Below, one piece after another: positions 16,320 through 36,695 of a stretch of 38,143 bases of DNA (positions are counted from its first letter, which is position 1; each line of letters starts with the position of its first letter). A program made the translations under genes and the position numbers. The stretch comes from Alphaproteobacteria bacterium (GTDB taxonomy: Bacteria > Pseudomonadota > Alphaproteobacteria > SMXS01). The stretch covers positions 1-38,143 of the forward strand of contig JAURPT010000151.1 in NCBI GenBank assembly GCA_030836535.1, in the 5' to 3' direction. Below the pieces are notes generated by a model that was not told where the DNA came from, ran no database searches, and saw only the letters and a list, made by a program, of their open reading frames with translations.

Positions 16320-16382
16320 CGCTGTGGCTTTCATCGACTGGTTCTACGGATATAGAATTCAGGTAATTGGGGGAGGGACAGC

Positions 16383-17045
16383 GTGATCACATTTGGCATG
16401 GTAGGTAGCGGCGGCCTGGGGCGGGAGATGATGTATATCGCCATGCCCTCGCTTTTGCAGCAATTTCCCGGGTCGACGGAAAGCGACTTTCGCCTGGTCT
16501 GGGTAGAAAGTGAACCCCAGAAAAGTACGGTGCACGACCTCCCTGTTTTGTCGGTGGATGATTTTATCGCCGAGGCCGATGACAACACCTGTCTCAATAT
16601 CGGGATCGGCGACGGCTATATACGCGAGCGGTTGGCGAACTAGATTGAGGCGGAAGGCATTCGCCCCTTACAGCTGATGCACCCGAACTCTGAACTTAGG
16701 CCTGGGAATGATGTGGGGCCTGGCGCGACAATCAGTTTTCAATGCCTCATTTCAACTGACATCACTATTGGTGAGTACTTCATGTGTATGGCCTATTCTA
16801 TGGTCGTTCATGATTGTGTCATTGGCGACTATGTGACCTTCGCAACCCGCGTTTCCTGTAACGGCCATGTCCATATTGAAGACTATGTAGACGCTGGTAA
16901 CGGGGCCATGATCCGCAACGGGTCTTACGAGAAGCCGCTGCGTATTGGCAAAGGGGCCAAGACCGGCATGGGGGCTGTGGTGCTCGAAGATGTCCCCGCA
17001 GGGACAACGGTAGCGGGTAACCCGGCATGCATTCTCAGCAAATAG
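16383..17045 (+). pseudogene. second NeuD/PglD-like acetyltransferase with in-frame TAG
   Basis: A tandem paralogue of 15654-16319, the same length to within a codon, with a GTG start after GGGGGAGGG. TAG at 16641-16643 interrupts the frame exactly where the first copy has a CAG glutamine (ERLAGQLERAG against ERLAN-stop-IEAEG). The remaining 133 codons keep every landmark (MVVHDCVIGDYVTF, GNGAMIRNG, KTGMGAVVLEDVPAGTTVAGNPA). One C-to-T change explains the loss. Without suppression the product is a separate 86-residue sugar-binding part lacking the acetyl-transfer helix. Confidence 0.82.
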
Positions 17046-17144: not shown

Positions 17145-18758
17145 TTGGTATCCGTCCCCGTGACAAAGTCGATGCTTGCCGCGTTCGCCGAACGCTTTTC
17201 CCTTGCCCCTGACCCCTCCAGCTATACCCCGTCGCGGATCAAGACGGAGTTGCTCTCTGGTCTGACTGTCGCGCTCGCGCTGGTGCCAGAGGCTGTGGCC
17301 TTTGCCTTTGTCGCCGGCGTTCACCCGCTGGTCGGGCTGTATGCCGCCCTCATCGTGGGGCTGGTCACCGCCTGTATTGGCGGGCGCCCAGGCATGATCT
17401 CTGGTGCTACTGGCGCCTTGGCTGTGGTGATGGTCGCCTTGGTGGCAACCCACGGGGTGGAGTATCTCTTCGCCACCGTGGTGCTGATGGGCATTCTGCA
17501 GATATTGGCCGGGGTGTTTCATCTGGGTAAATTCATCCGGCTGGTACCGCACCCGGTGATGCTTGGTTTTGTGAACGGGCTGGCGATCGTGATTTTCCTG
17601 GCGCAGCTGACGCAGTTCCAGATTCCCGGCGCTGATGGCACCAAAGAATGGATGTCGGGCATGCCGCTGGCCATGATGCTGGGGCTGGTATGCCTTACCA
17701 TGGCTATTATCTGGCTGATGCCGAAGATTACCAAGGTCATCCCTGCACCACTCGCTGGCATTGGGATTGTGGCCATCCTCGTGATTGCCTTTGGTATCGA
17801 TGTACCCCGCGTGGGCGATATGGCCTCGATCAAGGGTGGGTTGCCCGAATTTCATATTCCCATGGTGGAGTTGAGCTGGGAAACCCTGCAGATCATCCTG
17901 CCTTATTCGATCATCCTGGCCGCCATTGGCCTGATTGAAAGCCTGCTGACGCTGAACCTTGTGGGTGAAATCACCGGCAAGCGCGGTGGGGCCTCGCAGG
18001 AATGTGTGGCCCAGGGCATCTCAAACACCATCACCGGTTTCTTCGGGGGCATGGGCGGCTGTGCGATGATTGGCCAGTCCATGATCAATGTAAAATCCGG
18101 CGGTCGTACGCGGCTATCCGGCATTTCAGCGGCACTGTTCCTGCTGGTGTTCATCCTGTTCGCCTCCGGGCTGATTGAACAGATCCCGCTCGCGGCCCTT
18201 GTGGGCGTGATGTTCATGGTCGTGATCGGTACTTTCGCCTGGCAGACATTGCGGATCATGAACCGCATTCCGCGCATTGATGGTGCCGTGATCATCATCG
18301 TCACCGCCGTGACGGTTTATGCCGACCTGGCTATTGCCGTGGTCGTGGGTGTGATTGTCTCTGCCCTGGCCTATGCGTGGAACAACGCCACGCGCATCCA
18401 TGCCCGTCGGCAGGACTATGACGGCGGTACGCGCATCTATCAGCTTGAAGGGCCGTTGTTTTTCGGGTCAACCGATGGGTTTGCTGAACTCTTCGACCCG
18501 GAGTCTGATCCCAAGACGGTGATTATCGACTTCATGAACAGCCGCGTGGTTGACCAGTCTGCCCTGCAGGCGATTGAAGATTTGGCCGTTAAATATGAAG
18601 CCCATGGCAAAATGCTTCAATTGCGGCACCTGTCGCCAGACTGCCACCGGGTGCTCAAGCGCGCTGGCCAGTTGATGGTGGATTCCGACGACGATCCCGA
18701 TTACGGCCTCGTGGTCGATTATGGTGTGCGCACAGGCAGCTTCGGTGGCGCGCATTAG
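17145..18758 (+). CDS. SulP family inorganic anion transporter
   Basis: About 537 residues from a TTG at 17145; GTG at 17160 or ATG at 17172 are equally possible because no ribosome site is clear. About 10-12 transmembrane helices carry the SulP signature near the start (ALALVPEAVAFAFVAGVHPLVGLYAA) and GGMGGCAMIGQSMINVKSGGRTRLSGI. A cytoplasmic STAS domain follows from about residue 430 (LEGPLFFGSTDGFAELF, VVDQSALQAIEDL). Bacterial members carry sulfate, bicarbonate or dicarboxylates, often with sodium or protons. The sulfur genes downstream make sulfate attractive, but similar short SulP proteins transport bicarbonate. A perfect AATTGCAATT palindrome lies at 17080-17089. Confidence 0.88.
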   Translation: MVSVPVTKSMLAAFAERFSLAPDPSSYTPSRIKTELLSGLTVALALVPEAVAFAFVAGVHPLVGLYAALIVGLVTACIGGRPGMISGATGALAVVMVALVATHGVEYLFATVVLMGILQILAGVFHLGKFIRLVPHPVMLGFVNGLAIVIFLAQLTQFQIPGADGTKEWMSGMPLAMMLGLVCLTMAIIWLMPKITKVIPAPLAGIGIVAILVIAFGIDVPRVGDMASIKGGLPEFHIPMVELSWETLQIILPYSIILAAIGLIESLLTLNLVGEITGKRGGASQECVAQGISNTITGFFGGMGGCAMIGQSMINVKSGGRTRLSGISAALFLLVFILFASGLIEQIPLAALVGVMFMVVIGTFAWQTLRIMNRIPRIDGAVIIIVTAVTVYADLAIAVVVGVIVSALAYAWNNATRIHARRQDYDGGTRIYQLEGPLFFGSTDGFAELFDPESDPKTVIIDFMNSRVVDQSALQAIEDLAVKYEAHGKMLQLRHLSPDCHRVLKRAGQLMVDSDDDPDYGLVVDYGVRTGSFGGAH

Positions 18759-18798
18759 CCTCTGGCCGAACTGAGTGAAGGTGGCTAATCTGCATCCC

Positions 18799-19389
18799 AT
18801 GATTGATGTAGATTTTGTCATCTGGGACTTTGACGGCGTGATCAACGCCAATGTTGTCGACGGGCACTTCACCTGGATCGACACTTTTCAGGAAGATTTG
18901 GGGCATTCACCCGAGCTGTTCTTGGAACACATGTTCAATGACAGCTTCCGTGAGGTACTGCGCGGTGAACGCGACATCATGGACCAGCTGCGAAATTGGG
19001 CCAGCCATGTGCAGCTTTCGGGCTCCCTGCGCGAGATTTACGATTATTGGCTTAAGAAGGACTCCATGGTCGACGAGCGGGTGCTCGACGTGATGGCCGA
19101 GGTCAAAGCGCGCGGTGTGGGCAACGCCATCGGCACCAATAACGACCCCAAGCGTGCCAACTATATTGAGCGTGACATGGGCCTGGGCGCGCATATTGAC
19201 CATATGTTTGCCGCCGGGCGTATGGGGGTGCTGAAGCCCGATGCCGCCTTCTTCGAGCATATCAGCGAGGTGCTGGGCATTGCCCCGGACCGGCTGATTC
19301 TGATTGACGACTTCCCGGAAAACATCGAAGGCGCCGACGCTGCTGGTTGGCACACGCACCATTATACCAGCTTTGAGGGCCGACCCTAA
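18799..19389 (+). CDS. HAD-superfamily hydrolase (IA-like)
   Basis: A 196-residue phosphatase-type protein. Motif I is WDFDGVIN with the nucleophile Asp and acid/base Asp, motif II is GTNND, motif III is the Lys of GVLKPDAAFF, and motif IV is LILIDDFPENIEGA. A helical cap lies between motifs I and II. In-frame GTG codons at 18775 and 18781 are alternative starts; the ATG at 18799 begins just before the catalytic strand as usual. The substrate is unknown; it lies 40 bases downstream of the SulP gene. Confidence 0.85.
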   Translation: MIDVDFVIWDFDGVINANVVDGHFTWIDTFQEDLGHSPELFLEHMFNDSFREVLRGERDIMDQLRNWASHVQLSGSLREIYDYWLKKDSMVDERVLDVMAEVKARGVGNAIGTNNDPKRANYIERDMGLGAHIDHMFAAGRMGVLKPDAAFFEHISEVLGIAPDRLILIDDFPENIEGADAAGWHTHHYTSFEGRP

Positions 19390-19423
19390 GAGCGCGGCTG
19401 GGGTTGGGGTGAGATTATCCGTC

Positions 19424-19544
19424 CTACCCTTCGATACAATCCTTCCCTTTGGTCAGGATCACTCAGGGTGAACGGCTTTTTTTCTTTCCGTTCATGCTGA
19501 GTGATTTCGAGTGGAATGAGAAATTGTATCGAAGCATTGAACGG
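19424..19544. repeat. inverted-repeat element IR-A, copy 1
   Basis: Two roughly 47-bp arms in opposite orientation. One reads TTCGATACAAT through CACTCAGGGTGAACGG, the other CCGTTCATGCTGAGTGAT through ATTGTATCGAAG. They lie between two convergent HAD genes. The same arms recur at four other places up to 27.1 kb. The arms can form a long hairpin that could also terminate transcription. Confidence 0.85.
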
Positions 19545-19555
19545 CCAATGTCTTC

Positions 19556-20233
19556 CTAAACCCCGATCCGTACCAGCATGTCATGGACGGCCTTCAGGCT
19601 GTCGGCCTCAAAGCCCGGATTGGTGGGCGCATCGGTAGGCCAGGTTGCGCCATTGGGCACCCACATGCTTTGCATACCGGCCGTTTGCGCGCCGAGAATA
19701 TCGGCTTCCGGATTATCGCCTACAAACAGGCATTCTTCGGGCTTGAGGGAAAGCCGCGAGGCTGCGCGCCAGAAAATCTCTGGGTCGGGCTTGCGGATGC
19801 CTTCTTTCTCCGACACCAGAATGCCGTCGACCAGCAGGTCGAGCTTAAGCTTGTAGATATTGCGCATCTGGTGGTCTTCACGCCCATTGCTGATAATGCC
19901 CGTATGCAGGCCCTTCTGGCGTAAATACAGCAGCAATTCTTCTGAGCCTGCAACCAGTTGCACGAATTGCGGGAAGCCATCTTCATATTCGCCGTGCATG
20001 GTGTTGGCGAGGTCTTCATCCACCTGGCCAAGGTGGCCCAACAGGGCTGTATAAGTCTCCAGCTGCGGCTTGGTGCCACGGGCATCGAGCGTCAGGAACA
20101 GCTCGGTATAGTCCTCCACCGATACATGAGCGATAGCCTCGTGCCGCTTGTGCTGGTCGGTGAGGAACAGGCGCAACGACCCGGTGCGGTCTAACAGGGT
20201 TTCATCGAGGTCGAAAAGAATGGCGTTGATCAT
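19556..20233 (-). CDS. HAD-family hydrolase, YjjG-like subgroup
   Basis: A 225-residue protein. Motif I LFDLDETLLDR follows directly after the ATG at 20231-20233, motif II is IISNGRED, motif III is KEGIRKPDPEIF and motif IV is CLFVGDNPEADILGA. This arrangement is typical of YjjG/house-cleaning nucleotidase-like HAD-IA proteins. It would act as a cytoplasmic small-molecule phosphatase. The frame is open 12 codons further upstream, without a ribosome site in either case. Confidence 0.87.
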   Translation of the reverse strand: MINAILFDLDETLLDRTGSLRLFLTDQHKRHEAIAHVSVEDYTELFLTLDARGTKPQLETYTALLGHLGQVDEDLANTMHGEYEDGFPQFVQLVAGSEELLLYLRQKGLHTGIISNGREDHQMRNIYKLKLDLLVDGILVSEKEGIRKPDPEIFWRAASRLSLKPEECLFVGDNPEADILGAQTAGMQSMWVPNGATWPTDAPTNPGFEADSLKAVHDMLVRIGV

Positions 20234-20289
20234 GCGGTGGGTATAGCGGGGAAATTGTGCTCTGATCAATGGCTAAGAGTAGCGTTGTC

Positions 20290-20407
20290 ATCCCAGCGTA
20301 GGCTGGGATCCACTTTGGCGGTGGGGGGAAAGGAGCGGACTGCCGCGTCACAGTTAAACCAGCTATATGTCTCAAACCGATGAGTAGATTCCTGCCTTCG
20401 CAGGAAT
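20290..20407. repeat. two short intergenic palindromes
   Basis: A perfect hairpin ATCCCAGC-GTAG-GCTGGGAT at 20290-20309 and a second, ATTCCTGC-CTTC-GCAGGAAT, at 20388-20407, both with an adjoining ATGAC/GTCAT word. This pair of words is a common dispersed repeat in alphaproteobacteria. It lies between metC and a HAD gene and may act as a bidirectional terminator. Confidence 0.8.
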
Positions 20408-20419
20408 GACAAAGAGGTT

Positions 20420-21637
20420 TTAGATTTCTTTACCCAACCGCTCAAAACCGGCGTCGAGGTCGGCAATCAAATCATCTGTATCTTCCAGCCCGATATGGAA
20501 GCGGATCAGCGGGCCGGGGGCATCCCAGGGCACGGCCGTGCGTTCGCCGGTCGGGTCGGCGGGCAGCACCAGGCTTTCAAACCCGCCCCAGCTATAGCCC
20601 ATGCCAAATAGCTGCAGATCATCGACCATGGCGGTGACATTGTCGTCGGTATAACCCTCTTTCAACACGATGCTGAACAGGCCAGAGGCCCCGTCAAAGT
20701 CGCGCTTCCAGACGTCGTGGCCCGGGAAGCTTTCCAGGGCAGGGTGGCGCACATGGTCCACCTCGGGCCGGCCAGCCAGCCAGTTGGCAACCTTCAGGCC
20801 GTTTTCCTCATGCTGGCGCATCCGTACCGCCAGTGTGCGCAAACCGCGCGAGGCCAGATAGGCATCATCTGGCGCAACCGCCTGGCCCATTACAAAGCTT
20901 TGCCGCTGGAAGACATCCCAGCTCGCCTCATTACACACGGTAATACCCAGCATGGCGTCAGAGTGCCCGACGATATATTTCGTGGCGGCGTGGATGACCA
21001 TATCGGCCCCATGTTCCAGCGGGCGGAAGAACAGCGGCGTGCCCCAGGTGTTGTCGACCAGCACTTTGGCGCCGTGCTTTTTGGCAACGCGGGCGATGGC
21101 TGGCAGGTCTGAGACTTCAAAGGTCAGGCTGCCGGGCGTCTCCACAAACACGACCGAAGTATTCTCCTGCATCAGGGATTCCATCCCTTCGGCGGTGATC
21201 AGCGGGTCATAGAAGGTTGTTTCCACACCGATTTTGCGCAGCGCGATGTTGCAGAAGATGCGCGTGGGCTCATAGGCCGTGTCGGGCATCAGGATGTGGT
21301 CGCCCGCCCGGCAAAAGGCATAAAGCGCCGTGGTAATCGCCGCCAGGCCAGAGGGGTGCAGCAGGGCGTCATGGCCGCCATCCAGCTCGACCATGGCGTC
21401 GCGCAGGGACCACTGGGTCGGCGTGCCGCGCCTGCCATAATAGAAATTGCGGTTCTTGTGTTTAGTGGCGAATTGCAGGTCTTCGACGCTGTCATACAGG
21501 ATGGTCGACGCCCGGTAGACCGGCGTATTGACCATTTCCTTGTCTCGGCCACGATAGCCCGTCGCACCAGACTTTGGCCGCCCCGCATTGGTAATGGCGG
21601 TGTCTTTAGGCGGTGATTTTTTGGCGTCGTCACTCAT
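20420..21637 (-). CDS. metC: cystathionine beta-lyase
   Basis: About 405 residues from the ATG at 21635-21637; an ATG 16 codons upstream is possible. It is a PLP enzyme of the Cys/Met metabolism fold type I. The cofactor lysine is in HAATKYIVGHSD (about Lys220), with the preceding VLVDNTWGTPLFFRPLEHGAD and the phosphate-binding HPSGLAA. The beta-lyase group ending SWGGFESLVLP followed by RFHIGLEDTDDLIADL fits MetC, which splits cystathionine to homocysteine, pyruvate and ammonia. It can also act as a cysteine desulfhydrase. It belongs to a minus-strand sulfur cluster with sseA and cysK. Confidence 0.88.
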   Translation of the reverse strand: MSDDAKKSPPKDTAITNAGRPKSGATGYRGRDKEMVNTPVYRASTILYDSVEDLQFATKHKNRNFYYGRRGTPTQWSLRDAMVELDGGHDALLHPSGLAAITTALYAFCRAGDHILMPDTAYEPTRIFCNIALRKIGVETTFYDPLITAEGMESLMQENTSVVFVETPGSLTFEVSDLPAIARVAKKHGAKVLVDNTWGTPLFFRPLEHGADMVIHAATKYIVGHSDAMLGITVCNEASWDVFQRQSFVMGQAVAPDDAYLASRGLRTLAVRMRQHEENGLKVANWLAGRPEVDHVRHPALESFPGHDVWKRDFDGASGLFSIVLKEGYTDDNVTAMVDDLQLFGMGYSWGGFESLVLPADPTGERTAVPWDAPGPLIRFHIGLEDTDDLIADLDAGFERLGKEI

Positions 21638-21698
21638 GGCTGGGACGGTAGCAGGTGGCCCAAAGGGGGGCAATGTCATTGACATGGCTGGGAATATC

Positions 21699-21855
21699 GT
21701 TCGTGCCGAGTGATCCCGAACAAAGAGAGGGATTGTATCGAGGTGCGGGCAAATGAAGGTCGGCCAAGAATGACGCCTCTGTGTTCATCCCTCGATAAAA
21801 CGTCTCGTTCCACTTGCCGCCACTAGGGATGAACGGGATTGCATTGAGGAACGAC
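21699..21855. repeat. inverted-repeat element IR-A, copy 2
   Basis: The left arm reads CGTTCGTGCCGAGTGATCC through GATTGTATCGAGG (21699-21742). A more degraded right arm (TTCATCCCTCGATAAAAC through GGGATGAACGG) ends at about 21837, and a further fragment reaches the sseA stop. It separates metC from sseA. Confidence 0.75.
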
Positions 21856-22692
21856 CTAATTCTCTACCGGCAAGTCTTCCCGCGCGCCCCATTCCGACCA
21901 GGAGCCCTCATAAAGCGCCACGTTGCCATGCCCCAGCTCTGCCAGGCCAAGCGACAGCACCGCCGCCGTCACACCAGACCCGCAGGTGGTAATAATGGGC
22001 GCGTCCATGTTGACGCCTGCAGCCAGATAGGCCTTCCGCAGGGCGTCGCCTCGCAGCATCAACCCATCTGCGTCAAACAGCTTGTTGAAGGGCAGGTTCA
22101 GCGCCCCGGGCATATGGCCGCCGCGCAGCCCGGCGCGGGGTTCCGGGTCGGTACCGGCAAAACGACCGGCCGAGCGGGCATCGAGCACCTGTGCACTGGC
22201 ATTATCAAGCGCGGCTTTTACCTGTTCTGCGCTGCGGACCATGTTGTCCAGAAAGCCTGGTGTGAAATGCTTTTCGCGAACATTTTCCGGCAGGTTGGAG
22301 AGGGGCTTACCCTCGGCCAGCCAGCGGGGCAGGCCGCCATCGAGCACAAAGACATTTTCATAGCCAAAAGCGCGGAACATCCACCACACCCGCGCGGCAG
22401 AGGACAGGCCGGAGCCGTCGTAAATCACAATCCGGGTGCCGTCGCCCAGCCCCAGCTTGCGCACCCGCAGCGAGAACTTCTCGGCAGAGGGCAGCATATG
22501 CGGTAGGTCGCTGTCCGTGTCAGCAATCTCGTCGATATCGAAGAACACGGCGGAGGGAATGTGCCCCTCCGCATACTCTGCCAGCGGGTTGCGGTTCAGC
22601 CCCGGCAGGTACCAGCTGGCATCAACGACGCGAATGTCGTCAGCGTTCAGGTTTTCAGCAAGCCAGTCGGTAGAAACAAGGGGGCTGGTCAT
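21856..22692 (-). CDS. sseA: 3-mercaptopyruvate/thiosulfate sulfurtransferase
   Basis: A 278-residue protein of two rhodanese domains. The active loop CGSGVTA (Cys237) matches the 3-mercaptopyruvate sulfurtransferase form. The first domain carries a non-catalytic YDGSGLSSA loop, and the linker SAEQVKAAL and DARSAGRFAGTDPEPR are typical. It moves sulfane sulfur from mercaptopyruvate to thiols or cyanide. Its ATG lies 3 bases beyond the stop of cysK, so the two are almost certainly cotranscribed and coupled. Confidence 0.92.
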   Translation of the reverse strand: MTSPLVSTDWLAENLNADDIRVVDASWYLPGLNRNPLAEYAEGHIPSAVFFDIDEIADTDSDLPHMLPSAEKFSLRVRKLGLGDGTRIVIYDGSGLSSAARVWWMFRAFGYENVFVLDGGLPRWLAEGKPLSNLPENVREKHFTPGFLDNMVRSAEQVKAALDNASAQVLDARSAGRFAGTDPEPRAGLRGGHMPGALNLPFNKLFDADGLMLRGDALRKAYLAAGVNMDAPIITTCGSGVTAAVLSLGLAELGHGNVALYEGSWSEWGAREDLPVEN

Positions 22693-22695
22693 GGT

Positions 22696-23697
22696 CTATT
22701 CCATCCAGTGGGGGGCAGGCAGCCCCTGTTCGCGCAGGAAGGCGGGGTTATACATCTTGCTCTGGTAGCGGGTGCCATAGTCGCACAGCATGGTCACGAT
22801 GGTGTGGCCCGGGCCCATTTCCTTGGCCAGACGCATGGCCCCGGCGATATTGATGCCAGACGAGCCGCCCAGCACCAGGCCTTCATCTTCAATCAGATCA
22901 AAGCAGATCTGCAGCGCCTCAGAATCTTCAATCTGGAAGGGGTGGTCGATCTCGGCCCCATCAAGGTTCGCGGTGATGCGCCCCTGGCCAATGCCTTCGG
23001 TGATCGAGGAGCCTTCGGCTTTCAATTCACCATGGGCATAATAATTGAACAAGGCAGCGCCCATTGGGTCGGCCAGGCCGATCTGGATATCCGGGTCCAG
23101 CTCCTTAAGCCCCATGGAAACCCCGGCCAGCGTGCCGCCGGTGCCCACAGCGCAGGCAAAGCCGTCGACCTTGTGGTCGGTCTGTTCCCAAATCTCGCGG
23201 GCGGTGGTCACAATGTGAATATTGCGGTTGGCCACATTGTCGAACTGGTTGGCCCAGATGGCCCCATTCGGGTTTTCCTTGGCGATGTCTTCTGCCAGGC
23301 GGCCGGAATATTTCACGTAATTATTCGGGTCCTTATAGGGCACGGCGGGCACCAGCCGCAGGTCGGCCCCGCACAGGCGCAGCATGTCGAACTTTTCCTG
23401 AGACTGCGTCTCTGGCACCACGATGACGGATTTATAACCGCGCGCATTACCCACCAGTGACAGGCCAATGCCGGTATTGCCAGCCGTGCCTTCCACAATC
23501 ACGCCGCCAGGGGCAAGCAGGCCTTTTTCTTCTGCGTCCTTGATGATGCCCCAGGCGGCGCGGTCCTTCACCGACCCGCCGGGGTTGAGGAACTCTGCCT
23601 TGCCGAGAATTTCACAGCCGGTGAGCTCCGACGCCTTGTTCAGGCGAATGAGCGGCGTGTTGCCAATGGCTTCGACAAAATCTTTACGTATCTGCAT
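22696..23697 (-). CDS. cysK: cysteine synthase (O-acetylserine sulfhydrylase type)
   Basis: A 333-residue PLP enzyme from the ATG at 23695-23697; a TTG 13 codons upstream looks spurious. The cofactor lysine is in NPGGSVKDRAA (Lys44), with EGTAGNTGIGLS and VGTGGTLAGV binding the phosphate. The product is cysteine from O-acetylserine and sulfide. An insert-rich middle (RLVPAVPYKDPNNYVKYSGRLAE) and the ending CDYGTRYQSKMYNPAFL are shared with a subset of cysteine synthases annotated CysK/CBS-like in alphaproteobacteria, so a cystathionine beta-synthase-like activity cannot be excluded. Confidence 0.88.
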   Translation of the reverse strand: MQIRKDFVEAIGNTPLIRLNKASELTGCEILGKAEFLNPGGSVKDRAAWGIIKDAEEKGLLAPGGVIVEGTAGNTGIGLSLVGNARGYKSVIVVPETQSQEKFDMLRLCGADLRLVPAVPYKDPNNYVKYSGRLAEDIAKENPNGAIWANQFDNVANRNIHIVTTAREIWEQTDHKVDGFACAVGTGGTLAGVSMGLKELDPDIQIGLADPMGAALFNYYAHGELKAEGSSITEGIGQGRITANLDGAEIDHPFQIEDSEALQICFDLIEDEGLVLGGSSGINIAGAMRLAKEMGPGHTIVTMLCDYGTRYQSKMYNPAFLREQGLPAPHWME

Positions 23698-23914
23698 GGG
23701 TTCGCGTGCGTCCTGCTGCGCCTTCAGGCAGGCCAACAGCCCACCCGGATGGAATGGATATGATTGCGCGCTAACTTAGAGGAGGGGGGCAGCGGGGGCA
23801 AGGGGGTGTGAAAATGAGGACGTCTATCATTGATGGTGATAACGAGCCGGTTGCGCTCTTTGGGCCGCCCCCTTATCAAGGGAGTGGTATTCATAGTCAA
23901 AGTACGATTTTCTA

Positions 23915-27714: not shown

Positions 27715-28488
27715 CTAGTAGCCGAAATGGGCAACATCTTTTTCGTAATCGGCGCGGTTAACCCAGTCCCAGGCAGAGAAGTCGCGCCGCACAGAGGACA
27801 CGCGTCGGAAGCCGGTTTTCAGGTTGACCGCCTTCTGGTGAAACAGGTGTTCCAGCAGCTCGATATTGTCGTCGGCTTCGCTGAGCCGGATGATATGGCC
27901 GTTGGGTAGCGTTTCTGCAGTGCGATAGACCTTCACCCAGAAACGCATCAGGTCTTCGACCAGCATCTGTCGTTTCTCGTCGTCCAGGTCATAGAAATGG
28001 TGCGTATTCACGCGCAGAATCTTTGACCAATAGTAAATGCCGCCATAATTAAAGAAAACCCAGGACTGAACAGTGCTGAAATAGTCAAAGATGGACCGCA
28101 TCCAGTCGCTGGGGTCGCGGATCATGAACACCATATTGTCGTCGGGGAACATCCTGGATAGGCGTTCTGCATGCAGGGCGTGATAGCCGAAGGATTCGCA
28201 TTTCAGGTTAAGCCAGGCCTTGCGGCGGTGCATAAAGTCCGGGTCATGGCCCCACCGCATGGTCGGGTAGGGGATAGGCTCATGGCGTGCATGGGCCGGG
28301 TCAAAGATGTTCGCCACAAAAGTTGTGCCGGTTTTGTAGGGGCTGATGCAAAACCCCGTGCGCAGGTTCGGGTTGGGTTCTGTTGCCATGATCTCCCGAT
28401 ATTGCCAGGCAGACTGCAGCTTGAGCAGCGGCCCGTGCAACGGGGTCTTGGCCAAACCCCTTTTTATTCTCCCGGTCAACCGTGGCAT
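27715..28488 (-). CDS. PAPS-dependent sulfotransferase-like protein, paralogue 1
   Basis: A 257-residue member of a four-gene family. The 5'-phosphosulfate loop is SPYKTGTTF (residues 49-57) and the 3'-phosphate site is IRDPSDWMRS; together these bind the sulfate donor PAPS in cytosolic and membrane sulfotransferases. KTPLHGPLLKLQSAWQ at the start and the ending with SAWDWVNRADY and a final FGY match the tandem paralogues at 33824-36210. It is the most divergent copy and stands apart, separated from them by the tetR-RND operon. The acceptor is unknown; sugars, lipids or small metabolites are all possible. Confidence 0.78.
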   Translation of the reverse strand: MPRLTGRIKRGLAKTPLHGPLLKLQSAWQYREIMATEPNPNLRTGFCISPYKTGTTFVANIFDPAHARHEPIPYPTMRWGHDPDFMHRRKAWLNLKCESFGYHALHAERLSRMFPDDNMVFMIRDPSDWMRSIFDYFSTVQSWVFFNYGGIYYWSKILRVNTHHFYDLDDEKRQMLVEDLMRFWVKVYRTAETLPNGHIIRLSEADDNIELLEHLFHQKAVNLKTGFRRVSSVRRDFSAWDWVNRADYEKDVAHFGY

Positions 28489-28624
28489 TTTTAGTCTATA
28501 TTTATCAGTCCATTAGGCGCTGTTCTTAACTTCGTATGGAAGCCCGAAGAACAGTCTCCTGCTCCATAGTAGGGCGGCTGCTGCCCCTGTCACGATATTT
28601 TTTGTAGGGGCATATCAGTCTTTA

Positions 28625-28653
28625 TTGACGCAGGTAACAGGGCTCTGTATAAA
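28625..28653 (+). promoter_or_regulatory. promoter of the tetR-efflux operon
   Basis: TTGACG (28625-28630), exactly 17 bases, then TATAAA (28648-28653): a near-consensus sigma70-type promoter. It lies 60 bases before the tetR start. Confidence 0.7.
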
Positions 28654-28656
28654 ATC

Positions 28657-28674
28657 TAAACGAACGTTAAGTTA
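28657..28674. promoter_or_regulatory. probable TetR-family operator
   Basis: An 18-bp dyad, TAA-N3-AACGTT-N3-TTA, lies just after the -10 box, covering the expected transcription start. A site in this position would let the repressor encoded by the next gene shut its own operon. Confidence 0.5.
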
Positions 28675-28712
28675 AATAATATACGATCAATTGGATCTTT
28701 CGGAAAACAGGC

Positions 28713-29360
28713 ATGTCACAACAGCCGGAACAGGACAAAAGGCGCACAGCAACAGGCGAGACAATTCTTGCCATTGCGGCCGAGCAATTTGCGGAACATG
28801 GCTATGCCTCTGTGTCCATGCGGCAATTGGCGCAGGCGATTGGCGTTACGCCGGCGGCGCTCTACCACCATTACCCGGACAAGGATGCGCTTTATCTGGC
28901 CGTTCTGCGGTCTGTGTTCGGGCGGGGTACGGATATGGCGCTCGATATGCTGCAACGTGAAGGATCGCCGCAGGACCGGTTGGCACGGGTCATGGGCGTA
29001 TTGGTACGCATGTTTGCAGAAGATGAGGTGATGATGAAACTGCTACACCGTGAGCTGTTGGACGGTGACGAAGAACGCCTGCGCACCCTGACAGAAGACA
29101 TCATGGTTGGCCCGCTCGAGGCCATTGAACAATTGGTTATCACCCTGTTGCCAGAGCGCGACGCACGGCTGACGACCATCTCGATCATCGCGGGCATTAT
29201 CGGGCACTTCCAATTGCGTCCCATGCTAGCGCATGTCCCCGGGGGCTGGACGGTCACAGACGACCCGGCAACCCTGGCGCGGCACCTTGTTAGCTGGGTG
29301 TTGGGGAATGATGCCCCCATACAGGCGCAGCTGAGCCTGGGGTTGGGAGAGGGCGAATGA
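28713..29360 (+). CDS. TetR/AcrR-family transcriptional repressor
   Basis: A 215-residue regulator. The helix-turn-helix covers about residues 15-60 (ETILAIAAEQFAEHGYASVSMRQLAQAIGVTPAALYHHYPDKDALY), closely fitting the TetR_N consensus. The helical remainder is the ligand-binding and dimer part and includes a segment typical of CerR-like regulators of efflux genes (EDEVMMKLLHRELLDGDEERL). Its stop overlaps the start of the adaptor gene (ATGA), so it heads the operon and probably represses it through the palindrome at 28657-28674. Confidence 0.9.
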   Translation: MSQQPEQDKRRTATGETILAIAAEQFAEHGYASVSMRQLAQAIGVTPAALYHHYPDKDALYLAVLRSVFGRGTDMALDMLQREGSPQDRLARVMGVLVRMFAEDEVMMKLLHRELLDGDEERLRTLTEDIMVGPLEAIEQLVITLLPERDARLTTISIIAGIIGHFQLRPMLAHVPGGWTVTDDPATLARHLVSWVLGNDAPIQAQLSLGLGEGE

Positions 29361-30469
29361 AGCGTTATGCATCCATCGCTCTGATTATGGCGCTGATCGT
29401 GGCCGGTTGTGGGGAAGATCCGGCCCCTTATGACGCGCCGGAACCATTTAGCCTGTCCATGCCGGTCAAGATTGTGGCGGTTGAAGACGTCCCAAGCCTT
29501 TATACGGTACCCGGCAAGGTTCGCTCGGACGAGCGCCTGGCGATCAGCTCCCGCATTACCGGCTTTATTCAGGCCATTCCCGTTGAAGAAGGCCAGCAGA
29601 TCAGCCGTGGTGAGGCCTTGGTGTCGATCGATGCCGATGAGGTTGAAGGTGCCATCGCCCGCGCCAAAGCCAGCCTGCAGGCAGCCCAAGCTGCGCATGG
29701 TGATGCAGAAGAAGATGTGACACGCCTGGCAGGTCTGCGCAAAAAGGGTTTTGTTGCCAACGAAACCTGGCGCAAGGCTACTGTGCGCCGCGATGTAACC
29801 GCCGCCAGCTTGCAGGAAGCCAAGGCTGCGCTGAACACCGCCCTGGCGGGTCGGCGCTATGCCAATATCACCAGCCCCATCGACGGGGTCATTGTTGCCC
29901 GCCACCAGCGGGTGGGGGATATGGCAGCACCCGGCATGCCAATCCTTACCATTGAAAGCCGTCAGCAACTGGTATTCCGCACGGCGGTGTCTGAAGACCA
30001 GATACAGCACATCAGTAAGGGTGATGTGGCCCGCCTGCAGATTGATGCCCTGGAGGGTGATGCTTTGGAAGGCGTCGTCATGCGGGTAGTGACGTCCGGT
30101 GATGCTGTGACCCATCGTTATGATGTAGATATTGCCCTGCCGGACGTGCCGGGCCTGTTGGCCGGTATGTTTGGCCGGGTGTCCTTCGTGATTGGGGCAG
30201 AACAGGCCACACTGGTGCCACAGAGCGCCATTGTTGAGCGAGGCGGGCTGCAAGGCGTCTTTGTATTAGATGCGCCACAAGGGGACACCAGCCTGTCCGA
30301 GGGCAGCCAGGCGCGATTCCGTTGGGTGCGACTTGGGGCGGCGGGTCCGGAAGGCGTCATTGTTACTGCCGGGCTTGAACCCGGTGAGGTCATCCTGACC
30401 GAAGAAGACCATCGTATTCGCGATGGCGACATGGTGCGGGTTGTCCTGAAAGCTGCGCTCTATGACTGA
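29357..30469 (+). CDS. RND efflux periplasmic adaptor lipoprotein
   Basis: A 370-residue membrane fusion protein. A lipoprotein signal with lipobox IVAGC (Cys18) anchors it to the inner membrane. The order is beta-barrel start, a lipoyl half (SRITGFIQAIPVEEGQQISRGEALVSID), an alpha-hairpin (EGAIARAKASLQAAQAAHGDAEEDVTRLAGLRKKGFV), the second lipoyl half (ITSPIDGVIVARHQRVGDM), beta-barrel and membrane-proximal domain. It links the RND pump to an outer-membrane channel; no TolC-like gene is in the window. It overlaps tetR by 4 bases and the pump gene by 8. Confidence 0.93.
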   Translation: MKRYASIALIMALIVAGCGEDPAPYDAPEPFSLSMPVKIVAVEDVPSLYTVPGKVRSDERLAISSRITGFIQAIPVEEGQQISRGEALVSIDADEVEGAIARAKASLQAAQAAHGDAEEDVTRLAGLRKKGFVANETWRKATVRRDVTAASLQEAKAALNTALAGRRYANITSPIDGVIVARHQRVGDMAAPGMPILTIESRQQLVFRTAVSEDQIQHISKGDVARLQIDALEGDALEGVVMRVVTSGDAVTHRYDVDIALPDVPGLLAGMFGRVSFVIGAEQATLVPQSAIVERGGLQGVFVLDAPQGDTSLSEGSQARFRWVRLGAAGPEGVIVTAGLEPGEVILTEEDHRIRDGDMVRVVLKAALYD

Positions 30470-33400
30470 GCAGACCCCGGCAGGGCAGGAATCCAGTCAT
30501 CACGGCACGCTGGCGTGGCGGCTGGCGAACACATTCACTACGTCGCGCCTGACCATGCTGGTCATTGTCGCTGTTGCGTTCTTTGGGTTGTTTGCGCTGG
30601 TAGAGACCCCGCGTGAGGAAAATCCGCAGATCGTCGTGCCGTCGGCTCAGGTGCGGGTGATGATGCCCGGGGCCAGTAGCGAAGAGGTGGAACACCTCAT
30701 CGTCACACCGCTTGAAGGCATCATGAGCGAGCTGCCGGGCGTCAAGAACACCTATGGCCTCGCGATGAATTCGGTCGGCGTGGTCACCGTCGAATTCTTT
30801 GCGGGGGAAGACAAGGAAGACAGCCTTGTCAAACTCTATGACCGCATCCAGACCAATATGGACCGTCTACCCGCCGGGGCATCGGAGCCGCATATCCGGT
30901 CGCTCGATGTGGACGATATGCCCATTGTCACGGTGACGCTCGCCTCGGCCATCTATGACGACTATGCTCTCAAGCGTGTAGCTGACCGGGTGGGCGAGCG
31001 CCTGCGCAGCCTGCCATCGGTTTCCGTTGTTTCTGTGCGCGGTGGGCGTGACCGGGAAGTACGGATCGATCTGGACCCTGAGCGCCTGTTTACCTATGGC
31101 ATCCCGCTGTCCAGCGTGCAGCAGGTTTTGGCGGCCAGCAATCTGGCCATGCCGGCGGGTAACGTCGTGCGCGACGGTCAGTTGGAAACGGTCTTTGTCG
31201 CGGGCCGCATGCGCGGGGTCGAAGACGTACGCCAATTGGTCATCGGCCAATATGAAGGCCGCCCGGTCTATTTGGGTGACATTGCTGATGTCGTCGACGG
31301 CCCGCCTATTGAACGGGACAAACACGGCTGGTTTACCTTTGGCGCGGGTGACCCGCGCTATGTCACCCACGGCCCAGAGCAGTTGGCCTCGGTGACCATT
31401 GGCGTCGGCAAGAAGCAGGGCTCCAATGCCGTGGTCATGGTTGATGAGGTTATGAACCGCATCCATGACATGGAAGGCAGCCTGATCCCCCACGATGTCT
31501 ATGTCGAGATCACCCGTAATGACGGCAAAAAGGCCAATGATGCGGTCAATTTGTTGGTCGAGCACCTCGGCATTGCCGCTTTCACGGTATTCTTGGTGCT
31601 GGTGGTGTTCCTGGGGTGGCGGGCGGCGCTGATCGTGACCATTTCTGTGCCTCTGGTGTTTTTTGTGACCATTGGTGTTGACCTGTTGGTGGGTGTCACC
31701 ATCAACCGTGTGTCGCTTTTTGCCTTTATCCTGGCGTTGGGCTTGCTGGTGGACGACGCCATTGTGGTAATTGAGAATGTCCATCGGCGCTATGAGATTG
31801 AAGGCCGCAAGGCCCGCAATATGGCTGAAAAGGCCCGGCTGACGGTAGAAGCCTGTGCTGAAGTAGGCGGGGCGGCCAATTTGGCGACAGCGGCCGTTGT
31901 AGTCGTGTTCCTCTCCCTGTTCATGATCGAAGATATGATGGGGCAATATTTTACGCCGGTGGGCGTCAATGTGCCGACAGCCATGATCGCCTCGCTCTTT
32001 ATTGCCTATACCGTGGTGCCCTGGGCGGCACGGCGGTGGCTACCGGTTCCTGAAACTGATGCTGAGGGGCATTCTGGGGAACATACCCATGAGGAAGGAA
32101 AAGTAGCCCGCCTGTTCCGTAAAATCGTGTCCTCTTCCATCAACAGGGCGGGACCGCGATGGATGCTCTATGGCGGGGTCATCGTCTTGATGCTGGCCAC
32201 GGCCATGATGCCGGCCTGGCAGTTCATGCGGTCGGAAGGCGTTGCCGGGCCCAAGTCACCCCTGGGGGTGGCGGTGGCCTTTCTGCCCAAGGATAATACC
32301 AACACATTTACCGTGGCGGTTGAAACGCCACATGGCACGCCGCTGGAGGAAACCAACGCCCTGGTGCGGCGGATCAACGCGTTCATTGTCGGCCAACCTC
32401 AGGTCGTCAATACCCAAAGCTGGGTTGGCCAGATGGGAGTAGTGGACTTTGTTGGCCTGCTACGCGGTTCTGGTGACCGGCAGGGTTCTCATGTGGCCGA
32501 AATTCGCGTCAATCTGGTCGATAAATCAGAGCGCGCCACCATCTCGGTTGACCTGGTGCGCCAGCTAAGGCCCGGCATTGTGGAGATTGCGCGAATGATC
32601 CCCGGCACGGACATTCAGCTGTTGGAAGACCCGCCCGGTCCACCGATGCGCGCTACCATCTATGCTGAGATATATGGCAAGGATTTATACATGTTGCGGC
32701 AGTTGTCGGATGAAGTGACTGAAGCTTTCCGCAACAGTTACGACATGGTCGATGTGCGCCCCGAACAGCCTGAAGACGTGCTTGAGCACCGCATTGTTGT
32801 GGATAAGGAAAAGGCGGCGCTTTCCGGTGTGTCACACCTGCAGGTCGCGCAGATGCTGCGCTTGTTGTTTGATGAAGCGGTGCTGGGCCATATCCACCCG
32901 ACGGGCGAACGCCACGGCGTGCCCGTGCGGGTGCAGGTGCCGCAACAATACCAGTTGGACCCCACACGGCTGGACCGGGTGTTTGTGGAGAACGCTGCCG
33001 GTGATGCTGTCCCCCTGGCCACACTGGTCAGGCTGGAACAGGGCGTGCAGGCCCGGCCGATATTTCACAAAAACAATGAACGCGTGACCTTCGTAGGCGC
33101 AGAACTGACACAGACCGCGCCGTTCTACGCGGTGGTTGACCTTGACCAGCGGCTCGACGGGCTGGACCTGTCGCATTTGGAAGGCGGGCAAGGACTAAAG
33201 CTGAAGACAGATAATCTGGGAACCGAACGCGCCGTGCCGCAGACCATCAACGGCTACACGCTGTTTTGGGAAGGCGAGCTGCGTTTCACGCTTGATGCCT
33301 TTGGTGACATGGGCTTGGCCACCATGCTGGCGATGATTGCCGTTTTTGCATTATTGGTGGGCTATTATCGGTCGTTCTCGTTACCCGCCGTGGCCATGGT

Positions 33401-33830
33401 GTCCATCCCCCTTGGGTTTATTGGCATCTTCCCCGGCCACTGGATTACGGGGCAGGATTTCTCGGCCACTTCCATGATTGGTATTATCGCGCTGGCGGGT
33501 GTGGTGATCCGTTCTTCCCTGTTGATGATTGATTTTGCGCGGGAAAATGTTGCCCGAGGCATGGATTTGGAAGAGGCCATTATTCAGGCCGGTATCATCC
33601 GGGCTCGGCCTATTCTACTGACCACATTGGCGGTGATATTGGGTACGGCGGTGATCCTGATGGATACAGCCTTTGCCGGACTGGCCGTGGCGCTGATGTC
33701 TGGCGCAGGCGTGTCGTCGGTCTTAACGGTGCTGATTGTGCCGGTGCTCTATTGCCGGGTGGAACGCTGGCGGCAGCGGCGCGACGCGAAGGCCGCCGAA
33801 AAAGATGCCTTACAGGCGAAAGCTCAATAG
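30462..33830 (+). CDS. RND-family efflux permease
   Basis: A 1122-residue inner-membrane pump with 12 helices and two large periplasmic loops (about residues 40-350 and 620-930). The proton-relay pair is in GLLVDDAIVVIEN (Asp431, Asp432) in helix 4. The motif after helix 1 (ETPREENPQIVVPSAQVRVMMPGAS) and the helix 11 region (LTTLAVILGTAVILMDTAFAGLAVALMSG) place it among AcrB/MexF-like exporters of the shorter, less-studied subfamily often paired with lipoprotein adaptors. It probably exports a small hydrophobic compound, identity unknown. Its TAG overlaps the stop of the convergent sulfotransferase gene. Confidence 0.93.
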   Translation: MTEQTPAGQESSHHGTLAWRLANTFTTSRLTMLVIVAVAFFGLFALVETPREENPQIVVPSAQVRVMMPGASSEEVEHLIVTPLEGIMSELPGVKNTYGLAMNSVGVVTVEFFAGEDKEDSLVKLYDRIQTNMDRLPAGASEPHIRSLDVDDMPIVTVTLASAIYDDYALKRVADRVGERLRSLPSVSVVSVRGGRDREVRIDLDPERLFTYGIPLSSVQQVLAASNLAMPAGNVVRDGQLETVFVAGRMRGVEDVRQLVIGQYEGRPVYLGDIADVVDGPPIERDKHGWFTFGAGDPRYVTHGPEQLASVTIGVGKKQGSNAVVMVDEVMNRIHDMEGSLIPHDVYVEITRNDGKKANDAVNLLVEHLGIAAFTVFLVLVVFLGWRAALIVTISVPLVFFVTIGVDLLVGVTINRVSLFAFILALGLLVDDAIVVIENVHRRYEIEGRKARNMAEKARLTVEACAEVGGAANLATAAVVVVFLSLFMIEDMMGQYFTPVGVNVPTAMIASLFIAYTVVPWAARRWLPVPETDAEGHSGEHTHEEGKVARLFRKIVSSSINRAGPRWMLYGGVIVLMLATAMMPAWQFMRSEGVAGPKSPLGVAVAFLPKDNTNTFTVAVETPHGTPLEETNALVRRINAFIVGQPQVVNTQSWVGQMGVVDFVGLLRGSGDRQGSHVAEIRVNLVDKSERATISVDLVRQLRPGIVEIARMIPGTDIQLLEDPPGPPMRATIYAEIYGKDLYMLRQLSDEVTEAFRNSYDMVDVRPEQPEDVLEHRIVVDKEKAALSGVSHLQVAQMLRLLFDEAVLGHIHPTGERHGVPVRVQVPQQYQLDPTRLDRVFVENAAGDAVPLATLVRLEQGVQARPIFHKNNERVTFVGAELTQTAPFYAVVDLDQRLDGLDLSHLEGGQGLKLKTDNLGTERAVPQTINGYTLFWEGELRFTLDAFGDMGLATMLAMIAVFALLVGYYRSFSLPAVAMVSIPLGFIGIFPGHWITGQDFSATSMIGIIALAGVVIRSSLLMIDFARENVARGMDLEEAIIQAGIIRARPILLTTLAVILGTAVILMDTAFAGLAVALMSGAGVSSVLTVLIVPVLYCRVERWRQRRDAKAAEKDALQAKAQ

Positions 33831-34588
33831 CCAAATTCGGCAATGCCGTCTGCAAAGTCCGCCTTGTTGACATAGTTCCAGGCAGAGAAGGACTTGCGGC
33901 CTTCATTGATCCGTCGGAAACCTGTCTTCAGGTTCACCGCCTTTTGTTCAAAAAGGTGTTCCAGCAGCTCGATATTGTCGTCAGCTTTGTTCAGACGAAT
34001 GATATGTCCGTTGGGCAGGTCGCGGGCTGCTCTATACACCTTGAGCCAGAAATTCAGCATGTCACTGATGTACTCATGCTGGTCCTTCTCGTTCAATTCG
34101 AAAAACTCACTGTGACCATGCCGACTGATCAGGTTCGGGTATTGCTTGTCTGAGCGGGTATACATCCGAGCTCTCACGACAGGCACATAGTCCAGCACCG
34201 AGCCAATCCAGTTGCTTGGATCTCGAATCATGAAAACCATGTTGTCCTTTGGGAACAGTTATCCGTATTCGCGGGCGATACTTGCCAGAAAACCCGATGC
34301 CTCTATGCGTGCGTCCAGGTAGCTTTTCCGGCGTCGCAGAAAGTCGTGGTTCGAAAGATTGCGAACCGTGGATACTCGGAGAGGTTCATGGGCCGTCACC
34401 GATTGGTCAAATATTTGAGAGATAAATGTCGTGCCAGTCTTATGGGGCGATATGCAGTAGTTCGTTCGGACATCCCGAATGTCTGTTCTTCTGATTTGTC
34501 TGGCTTGCCAGTCGGATTGTATCGCCAGCAGTGGGTTATACAGGGGCGTTCTGACAAGAACGGACTTGGTTTTGCGTAGCAGGCTCAT
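33824..34588 (-). pseudogene. sulfotransferase-like paralogue 4, interrupted by in-frame TAA
   Basis: This is the last of three tandem copies. The first 109 codons carry SPHKTGTTF and the family core, then TAA (34259-34261) falls exactly where the neighbouring copy has Glu of FGELFPED. The same frame continues for 144 codons (LFPKDNMVFMIRDPSNW, HIIRLNKADDNIELLEHLFEQKAVNLKTGFRR) to TGA at 33824, ending in the family's FGY. A single G-to-T change in GAA or GAG explains it. The part before the stop holds the 5'-phosphosulfate loop but lacks the 3'-phosphate site, so the truncated form should be inactive. Confidence 0.85.
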
Positions 34589-34649
34589 TGGATTATCTTG
34601 GCTTTATATATTCTGTTGGCCGGTTCACGCTAAATGGCCTCGTTAAAGA

Positions 34650-35417
34650 TTAGTAGCCGAATTCGGCAATGGCATCTGCGAAGTCTTCTTTATTGACATA
34701 GTCCCAGGCAGAGAAGGGTTTTTTCTCTTCGTTGACACGTCGGAAGCCCGTTTTCAGATTCACCGCCTTTTGCGCAAAGAGGTGTTCCAGCAGCTCAATA
34801 TTGTCGTTGGCTTCGTTCAAGCGAATGATGTGCCCGTTGGGCAGGTCGCGGGCTTCCCCATAGACTTTCAACCAGAAATGCAACATCGCAGTAACATAGT
34901 CATGCTGTTGTTGGTCGGTCAGGTCATAGAAGTCGTTGGCATCGTAAGGGGTTATCCGGCGCCAGAAGAAATTTCGGCCGAAAATATAGTTCACCCGGCG
35001 GGCGACAACAGGCGCGTAGTTCAGGTGTGAGCCGATCCATTCGCTGGGGTCACGGATCATGAACACCACGTTGTCCTCGGGGAAGAGCTCGCCAAAATCC
35101 TTGGCGACATACGCAAAAAAGCCCGATGCTTCCACCCGAAGGTCCAGATAGGCCTTGCGCCGCCGCAGAAAGTCTGAATCTTGGATATGCTTTAGCGTTG
35201 GGTGATGCAACGGTTCGTGGGCCGAGACAGCCTGGTCGAACATATGTGCAATGAAGGTAGTGCCGGTCTTGTGAGGCGAGATGCAGTAGGCCGTGCGCAC
35301 GTCGCGAATGGGCGTGCGTTTGACGCGTGCAGTTTGCCAGGCCGACTGCACTTCCAGCAAAGGCCGGTGAAGTGGCGTTCTAACCAGTACCTGTTTTGCT
35401 TTGCGAACGAGACCCAT
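34650..35417 (-). CDS. PAPS-dependent sulfotransferase-like protein, paralogue 3
   Basis: A 255-residue protein from the ATG at 35415-35417; the frame is open further but would run into paralogue 2. SPHKTGTTF (residues 47-55) and IRDPSEWIGS (RDPSEW at 122-127) are the two PAPS-binding motifs. LPNGHIIRLNEANDNIELLEHLFAQKAVNLKTGFRR and the terminal SAWDYVNKEDFADAIAEFGY are nearly identical to the adjacent copies. It begins 25 bases after the stop of paralogue 2, indicating one transcript. Tandem copies with altered central segments suggest related but different acceptors. Confidence 0.8.
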   Translation of the reverse strand: MGLVRKAKQVLVRTPLHRPLLEVQSAWQTARVKRTPIRDVRTAYCISPHKTGTTFIAHMFDQAVSAHEPLHHPTLKHIQDSDFLRRRKAYLDLRVEASGFFAYVAKDFGELFPEDNVVFMIRDPSEWIGSHLNYAPVVARRVNYIFGRNFFWRRITPYDANDFYDLTDQQQHDYVTAMLHFWLKVYGEARDLPNGHIIRLNEANDNIELLEHLFAQKAVNLKTGFRRVNEEKKPFSAWDYVNKEDFADAIAEFGY

Positions 35418-35442
35418 GGAAAATTGTTCCTGATATGTTTGG

Positions 35443-36210
35443 TTAGTAGCCGAATTCGCCAATGGCATCTGCGAAGTCTGCCTTGTTGACATAGTCCCAG
35501 GCCGAAAACGGTTTGCGCCCCGGGCTGGTGTTGCGGTGGGCGTGTTTCAAGTTAACAGCTTTTTGGTTAAACAGATGCTCTAACCATTCGATTTTCTCTT
35601 CCACCTCATGCAACCGAATGATGTGTGCCTTGGGCAGCGTGCGGGCGGTTCGATAAGTACGTACCCAGAAGTTCAACATATCGGTGACATATTCGCATTG
35701 GGCCTCATCACCAAGCCTGTAGAAGTCGTTGCTGGCATAGCGGGTGACCTTGCGCCAGAAAAGTTTGCCGCCGAAGTGGTAATGAATTCTTTGCTGCATG
35801 ACAGCGGCATGGTCGAGGCAGGACCCAAGCCAGTCACTGGGATCGCGGATAGTGAACAGCAAATCGTCGTCCGGAAACAGTGCGGAGAATTCCTTTGCCA
35901 TGATCGCGAAATGGCCGGAAGCTTCCACGCGCAGGTCCAGAAATGCCTTGCGCCGTTGCAGGAAGTCCGGGTTGTGCATGTGTTTGAGTGTCAGGTGATA
36001 GAGCGGTTCATGCGCGGAGACAGACAGGTCGAACATATTGGCGATAAAGCTCGTGCCAGTCTTGTAGGGCGATATACAATAAGCCGTCCGCACATCGCGA
36101 ATGGGCGTGCGCATCACCTGCCGATACCGGCGTGCCGAATTCAGCTCCAACAGCGGGCGGTGCAGGGGCGTTCTTGCCAGAAATTTTTTGGTTTTGACGG
36201 CTAGGCCCAT
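35443..36210 (-). CDS. PAPS-dependent sulfotransferase-like protein, paralogue 2
   Basis: This is the first gene of the tandem array, 255 residues. SPYKTGTSF (47-55) and TIRDPSDWLGS (RDPSDW 122-127, Ser130) are the PAPS-binding motifs. The start MGLAVKTKKFLARTPLHRPLLEL and the end SAWDYVNKADFADAIGEFGY are shared with the other copies. The middle (FGGKLFWRKVTRYASNDFYRLGDEAQCEYVTDM) aligns with paralogue 3. It lacks the NLKTGFRR motif of the others, having NLKHAHRN. It is divergent from the hypothetical gene at 36249, only 38 bases apart. Confidence 0.8.
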   Translation of the reverse strand: MGLAVKTKKFLARTPLHRPLLELNSARRYRQVMRTPIRDVRTAYCISPYKTGTSFIANMFDLSVSAHEPLYHLTLKHMHNPDFLQRRKAFLDLRVEASGHFAIMAKEFSALFPDDDLLFTIRDPSDWLGSCLDHAAVMQQRIHYHFGGKLFWRKVTRYASNDFYRLGDEAQCEYVTDMLNFWVRTYRTARTLPKAHIIRLHEVEEKIEWLEHLFNQKAVNLKHAHRNTSPGRKPFSAWDYVNKADFADAIGEFGY

Positions 36211-36248: not shown

Positions 36249-36695
36249 GTGACTAAGCAGTCCGCAACAATATCCAGATTGATTGATACCGTGCAACAGC
36301 TGCAATTTACGGCCACACCCTTGGCCGGGGATGACATGCTGGAAGCCGTCGGACTGTGTTTTGTTCGGGTGACACTGTGCGATCAGGCATTCGACCTGCT
36401 GCTCGACAATGAATATGGCGATGTCGATGACCTGGCCAATCTGCCGCTGGTGCTCAACATGGTGCTCATGGCCATGGACGATGTTGAAGAAGAAGGGGAT
36501 GCCTTTTCCTGGGCGCAGGCATTGGGCCTGCCGGCAGGGGACCCCAAAACAGAAGAATTGTGGGCAAACCAGCAAAAGGCCTGCGTGGCGATCAAGCCAT
36601 TACTGCCGCCAGGGCTGGAGCCTATTTCTTCATGGGATTGGAGCCTGGGGGCAGGTGATGCCCCCACACTCCGTGGTTTAAAGGGCGCTGACTGA
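36249..36695 (+). CDS. hypothetical acidic protein
   Basis: A 148-residue protein starting at GTG (36249) after a purine-rich GAGGAAGA site. It is strongly acidic, with a DNEYGDVDDLANLPLVLNMVLMAMDDVEEEGDAF segment and no signal peptide or transmembrane helix; it is probably soluble. I recognise no family. It is divergent from the sulfotransferase array and convergent with the HicA-like gene, 4 bases apart. Confidence 0.6.
   Translation: MTKQSATISRLIDTVQQLQFTATPLAGDDMLEAVGLCFVRVTLCDQAFDLLLDNEYGDVDDLANLPLVLNMVLMAMDDVEEEGDAFSWAQALGLPAGDPKTEELWANQQKACVAIKPLLPPGLEPISSWDWSLGAGDAPTLRGLKGAD

Follow-up and report, generated by a model that had tools for sequence, protein, structure and literature searches.

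Sulfotransferase genes accompanied by genes for 3′-phosphoadenosine-5′-phosphosulfate (PAPS) are a hallmark of sulfated polysaccharide clusters (PMC11641403). The capsule of Vibrio sp. KMM 8419 is one such system with PAPS-dependent sulfotransferase genes (PMC11641403), and the locus described here is likened to it by gene kind and context. That locus lies in a 38,143-nucleotide window, positions 1 to 38,143 of contig JAURPT010000151.1 from an Alphaproteobacteria bacterium (assembly GCA_030836535.1), and consists of four paralogous sulfotransferase genes, ST1–ST4, arranged around an efflux operon of the TetR-MFP-RND type. Relatives of the window genes have glycosyltransferases and an initiating sugar transferase as neighbours, as in marine polysaccharide clusters; the window sulfotransferases differ in that they are not embedded in a glycan cluster and in that all four copies belong to one clade. 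As a rule, TetR-type regulators act on a divergently transcribed gene when it lies within 200 bp (PMC3511530). Of four such regulators with gaps of more than 200 bp, Ahn et al. found three that left the divergent gene unaffected and one that activated it (PMC3511530). The locus is probably best explained as two independent units side by side, a set of glycan-type sulfotransferases and a self-regulated efflux module, and its resemblance to a make-and-export system is most likely due to chance proximity. Its features are as follows.

27715–28488, minus strand: ST1, intact sulfotransferase of 257 amino acids, divergent from the TetR gene and the most diverged of the four paralogues (Pfam Sulfotransfer_3, 32.5 bits against a cut-off of 27)
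28625–28653, plus strand: candidate sigma-70 promoter, TTGACG-17 nt-TATAAA, read directly from the sequence
28656–28671, no strand assigned: candidate TetR operator, CTAAACGAACGTTAAG, immediately downstream of the −10 box
28713–29360, plus strand: TetR-family regulator (PF00440, 61 bits)
29357–30469, plus strand: RND periplasmic adaptor, MFP (TIGR01730, 193 bits)
30462–33830, plus strand: RND inner-membrane permease (PF00873, 513 bits; 49–52% identical to plasmid orthologues)
33824–34588, minus strand: ST2, interrupted sulfotransferase frame, otherwise full length and with all family-invariant residues kept
34259–34261, minus strand: premature TAA at codon 110 of ST2
34650–35417, minus strand: ST3, intact sulfotransferase of 255 amino acids (AlphaFold model with Foldseek matches in the PDB)
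35443–36210, minus strand: ST4, intact sulfotransferase of 255 amino acids (sub-threshold Sulfotransfer_4 match)

The initial annotation placed four paralogous sulfotransferases around the operon, and all are found there, with pairwise identities of 49–65% over full length and a mean column identity of 73%. ST4, ST3 and ST2 form a tandem, ST4 first, with intergenic gaps of 25 and 61 bp. This tandem converges on the pump genes, with a 7-bp overlap between the 3′ ends of ST2 and the RND gene, and ST1 and TetR point away from each other across 224 bp; no sulfotransferase therefore lies within the pump operon. The TetR, MFP and RND genes overlap one another and all have strong Pfam matches; permease and adaptor stand together, as in a tripartite RND operon. 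No TolC-like outer-membrane channel was recognised between 28713 and 36210; the rest of the genome was left unsearched and may supply one.

Closer relatives of the pump are found on plasmids. RND proteins of Polaromonas and Roseibium plasmids are 51–52% identical to the window permease and that of Sphingopyxis 49%; the best match among the relatives of the source genome is 33–36% identical. Plasmids of Roseibium aggregatum RF14 and Sphingopyxis fribergensis (pSfKp5.2) preserve the TetR-MFP-RND order of the window, with abutting or overlapping genes and a matching operator-like site, and differ from it in having no sulfotransferase nearby; next to the pSfKp5.2 module there is in addition a gene for an outer-membrane channel, which the window lacks. 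The order on the Polaromonas plasmids is MFP-RND-TolC, with lipid and polyprenyl genes. No homologue of ST1, ST3 or ST4 was found in the four orthologous plasmid pump regions, and no such sulfotransferase near 11 more distant RND loci. These comparisons suggest that TetR-MFP-RND is a separate accessory efflux module. On the Polaromonas plasmids L090 and L091, the orthologous MFP-RND-TolC genes belong to a conserved run with AarF/UbiB, a patatin-like phospholipase, a polyprenyl synthetase and a glycosyltransferase-like gene, possibly a lipid export system.

The sulfotransferases are correspondingly separable from the pump. A search with ST3 found no copy in 95 relatives, including one genome of the same genus and eight of the same family. 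Profile searches of two overlapping samples gave, outside the source genome, only two matches, both weak and partial and from a single genome, among 385 genomes of the class, and none at 1e-12 among 399 genomes of the phylum. A scan of an 84,980-species collection, which relies on two short peptide patterns and can therefore miss relatives, returned 16 loci in Halospina denitrificans and Flavobacteriaceae. Their products are 22–32% identical to ST3 over the alignment and up to 36% locally, and no RND, MFP or TetR homologue lies within 10 kb of any of the 16 loci (E 1e-4). The proposal that enzymes and pump are functionally linked is not supported: the arrangement occurs in no relative searched, the homologues have no RND gene within 10 kb, and the orthologous pump modules have no such sulfotransferases nearby. 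Conserved gene order, the check that the initial annotation had itself named, was not found in any relative searched.

Regulation points the same way. The consensus scan, in which the sixth base of the second hexamer has to be T, passed over the candidate promoter at 28625–28653. The candidate operator beside it is, as judged from sequence alone, an inverted repeat at the operon promoter, the arrangement expected of a TetR autorepressor. Counting matches in either orientation, CTTAACGAACGTTCAG upstream of the orthologous tetR of the Roseibium plasmid agrees with the window site at 14 of 16 positions and CTTAACGGTCGTTCAA upstream of that of the Sphingopyxis plasmid at 13 of 16, scores reached in none of 1000 shuffles each. 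The 2.68-Mb assembly contains the operator core, TNAACGNNCGTTNA, at a single place, 28656–28671, and the upstream regions of ST1 and ST4 hold matches no better than those of shuffles. The 224-bp gap between TetR and ST1 and the unique operator at the pump promoter argue that TetR regulates its own pump operon and not the sulfotransferases. TetR may nevertheless exert weak or indirect control on ST1, the start of which is 168 bp from the operator.

That ST1–ST4 are PAPS-dependent sulfotransferases, as the initial annotation proposed, is supported by their PAPS loops, one Pfam match and a predicted fold with sulfotransferase neighbours in the PDB. All four share K-T-G-T-[TS], R-D-P-S-[DEN]-W, S-A-W-x-[YW]-V-N and FGY as last residues; three also begin with the TPLHxPLL that had been ascribed to all, and ST2 has TPLYNPLL. 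The phosphosulfate loop takes the form SP[YH]KTGT[TS] in ST1–ST4. Its K-T-G-T core is invariant across 21 relatives and follows the first strand, as a 5′-phosphosulfate loop does, and RDPS[DEN]W contains the R-x-x-S expected of the 3′-phosphate-binding strand-helix. In the wider strand-helix pattern, R-x-P-x-x-W-x-x-S, residues R122, P124, W127 and S130 are invariant in the same relatives and S125 is nearly so. H67 and E68, which follow the P-loop, are also invariant.

Profile searches, suggested earlier as a check, gave a mixed picture: ST1 alone exceeds the Pfam Sulfotransfer_3 cut-off, ST4 is below threshold for Sulfotransfer_4 and ST3 has no Pfam match. None of the sulfotransferases matched an NCBIfam model. 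Among 21 family members, one reached E 0.001 for Sulfotransfer_3 (PF13469) and two for Sulfotransfer_4 (PF17784). Both families share PAPS loops and fold with the window enzymes, whose branch is hardly covered by current profiles. The AlphaFold model of ST3 (mean pLDDT 92.7, pTM 0.88) has a strand at residues 43–46 followed by a helix at 53–59 at the K-T-G-T loop. The leading matches of this model in a Foldseek search of the PDB are sulfotransferases (tyrosylprotein, schistosome, mycobacterial and SULT), with a best E of 5e-4, a probability of 1.00, TM-scores to the query mostly of 0.33–0.53 and identities of 10–17%; these low values make ST3 a divergent member of the sulfotransferase fold. 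The best PDB folds, TPST1/2 and a tick homologue (8w5z, 5wrj), share the fold and the PAPS site, with identities of 11–14% and TM-scores of 0.34–0.49, and nothing points to peptide substrates for the window enzymes. In a sequence-profile search of the PDB, the 21-member profile gave chance-like matches only and the four-member profile marginal sulfotransferase matches. An APS kinase domain is encoded in a 685-residue frame of the source genome, so PAPS can be made.

ST1–ST4 are old duplicates under purifying selection. By the NG86 method, synonymous divergence (dS) among them runs from 1.6 to saturation and nonsynonymous divergence (dN) from 0.26 to 0.49; in all pairs for which the two values are computable, dN is by far the smaller. 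In a phylogenetic tree they form one clade (100/99 support), within which ST1 branches first and outside which Halospina lies on a long branch. They are the sole members of their kind in the source genome; five further contigs match Sulfotransfer_3 with sequences unlike ST1–ST4. Recent duplication or gene conversion was rejected because over full length only 42–54% of the codons of conserved residues are identical, dS runs from 1.6 to saturation, and no near-identical tract exists; the high protein identity at the 3′ end is conservation, not gene conversion. The central parts vary more than the ends, as had been noted from the sequence: pairwise identity is 21–47% in alignment columns 130–172 and 44–81% elsewhere. 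A natural reading is that this segment is a diversified, acceptor-facing part of the enzyme. Tandem pairs of this family also arose outside the window: in flavobacterial polysaccharide clusters of the species collection, L014 (8779–10798) and L018 (9941–11992) each carry two divergent sulfotransferase paralogues in tandem.

Other origins were also considered. A foreign island is suggested by composition at most for ST2, the sulfotransferases having a GC content of 0.50–0.55 against 0.56–0.60 for their neighbours; GC content at third codon positions (0.61–0.72) overlaps the range of the neighbours. A phage or plasmid source of the sulfotransferases was rejected, as no match was found in phages, plasmids or viral contigs. 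Around the dienelactone hydrolase gene, same-family genomes have no neighbours in common with the window, so the insertion point is not mappable.

Although all four genes are present, three are intact. The frame of ST2 is sound apart from the single TAA, at a site occupied by Glu, Arg or Ala in the paralogues; ST2 may be broken, polymorphic among strains or misassembled. Stop-codon recoding was rejected, since a single TAA at a variable site is involved and the remaining genes of the window translate normally with table 11.

The substrate class of ST1–ST4 is suggested by the context of distant relatives and is most likely a glycan. A Bac_transf polyprenol-phosphate sugar transferase lies within about 1.5 kb in six of the 16 loci (Halospina L013, L014, L018, L020, L024 and L026). 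The homologue at L016, inside a polysaccharide cluster, makes a seventh glycan context. The source genome has a single Bac_transf, 57% identical to that of Halospina, on contig C145, in a locus with a PglF-like 4,6-dehydratase, a DegT aminotransferase, four glycosyltransferases, a flippase and a chain-length-type kinase. The same-genus genome has neither Bac_transf nor the sulfotransferases, a joint absence that is no more than a hint from two genomes. Two adjacent NeuD/PglD-like hexapeptide sugar acetyltransferase genes, below the curated cut-off, are found at 15627–17045, 10–12 kb from ST1; the second is short (122 amino acids) and lacks its N-terminal half. The pair may be partners of the C145 glycan pathway.

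It is proposed that ST1–ST4, the outcome of one old, lineage-restricted gene expansion, would transfer sulfate from PAPS to the hydroxyl groups of a glycan, either lipid-linked or at the cell surface, with the polysaccharide locus on C145 as the likely acceptor pathway. Each copy may be tuned to a different acceptor through its variable central segment, and the invariant His67/Glu68 after the P-loop is a candidate catalytic base. TetR-MFP-RND would be a self-contained, mobile, multidrug-type efflux module whose TetR represses it at the conserved operator motif of its promoter, and the pump would not be a dedicated exporter of a sulfated product. Several points weigh against the glycan part of this proposal. 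L014/L018 and L024/L026 are related clusters, which leaves about four independent contexts, and several Winogradskyella homologues have non-glycan surroundings. Within 10 kb of ST1–ST4 the window has no gene for glycan assembly; the adjacency seen at six or seven of the 16 homologous loci is missing here, with the glycan locus on another contig. Acceptor binding by the variable segment is, moreover, a role that we infer from sequence variation.

The arrangement itself invites a different explanation, in which ST1–ST4 sulfate a small molecule or lipid that the RND pump exports under TetR control. The enzymes do adjoin the operon on both sides, and ST1 and TetR diverge from one shared intergenic region. 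Such a cluster is unlikely, however, since none of the other genomes searched has the arrangement, these sulfotransferases are missing from orthologous pump modules, and the operator sits at the pump promoter, with no recurrence upstream of ST1 or ST4. Nor were polyketide, peptide or terpene scaffold-building genes recognised nearby, and the co-conservation of sulfotransferase and exporter that would mark a sulfated-product cluster was not observed. The same evidence on pump separability and regulation speaks against a detoxification pair, in which the sulfotransferases would attach sulfate to toxic phenols or alcohols for the pump to expel, analogous to phase II/III metabolism. The RND class is multidrug-like, and SnoaL-like, dienelactone hydrolase and FMO genes close by point to metabolism of xenobiotic-like compounds; yet those homologues with informative context are in glycan rather than catabolic clusters, and this pairing is quite improbable.

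Doubt about the enzymes themselves leads to another explanation, that these are sulfotransferase-fold proteins with other or lost activity and that the interrupted ST2 is a first sign of decay. Pfam matches are weak or absent for three of the four paralogues, the TM-scores of the leading PDB matches are moderate to low, and ST2 has its stop codon. Conservation of both PAPS-contact loops across the 21 relatives and the low dN relative to dS in all computable pairs nevertheless make loss or change of activity unlikely. A very improbable variant combines the two units: a scarcely profiled clade would have expanded in one bacterial lineage into a set with a diversified central acceptor region, for position-specific sulfation of a surface glycan initiated with a di-amino sugar, with the pump recruited for a sulfated lipid-linked or free fragment.

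Two independent units thus remain the preferred explanation. When a mobile efflux module adjoins unrelated enzymes, the two together can mimic a biosynthesis-export cluster, and here orthologous modules and operator sites told them apart. The sulfotransferase branch is scarcely caught by current profiles, and its paralogue set is suited to the study of how acceptor specificity diverges.

Other features of the window were recorded. A 148-amino-acid open reading frame at 36249–36695, on the opposite strand to ST4 and beginning 38 bp from its start, has no Pfam or NCBIfam match and no counterpart in nine close relatives. A 284-amino-acid protein encoded at 10821–11675, without an NCBIfam match, contains a long Arg/Asp/Ala-rich repeat (RRAERRADRRAERR...). 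Genes for a ModABC-like transporter (ATPase, permease and binding protein) occupy 11825–14552, an assignment made from sequence only. Sulfur-related genes cluster at 17145–23736 and encode a SulP-type sulfate permease, a Cys/Met pyridoxal phosphate (PLP) enzyme, a rhodanese-type sulfurtransferase and a cysteine synthase. Plasmid matches to cysK point to Alphaproteobacteria. In two other genomes a rhodanese-type sulfurtransferase and a cysteine synthase are likewise encoded within about 3–12 kb of a related RND gene.

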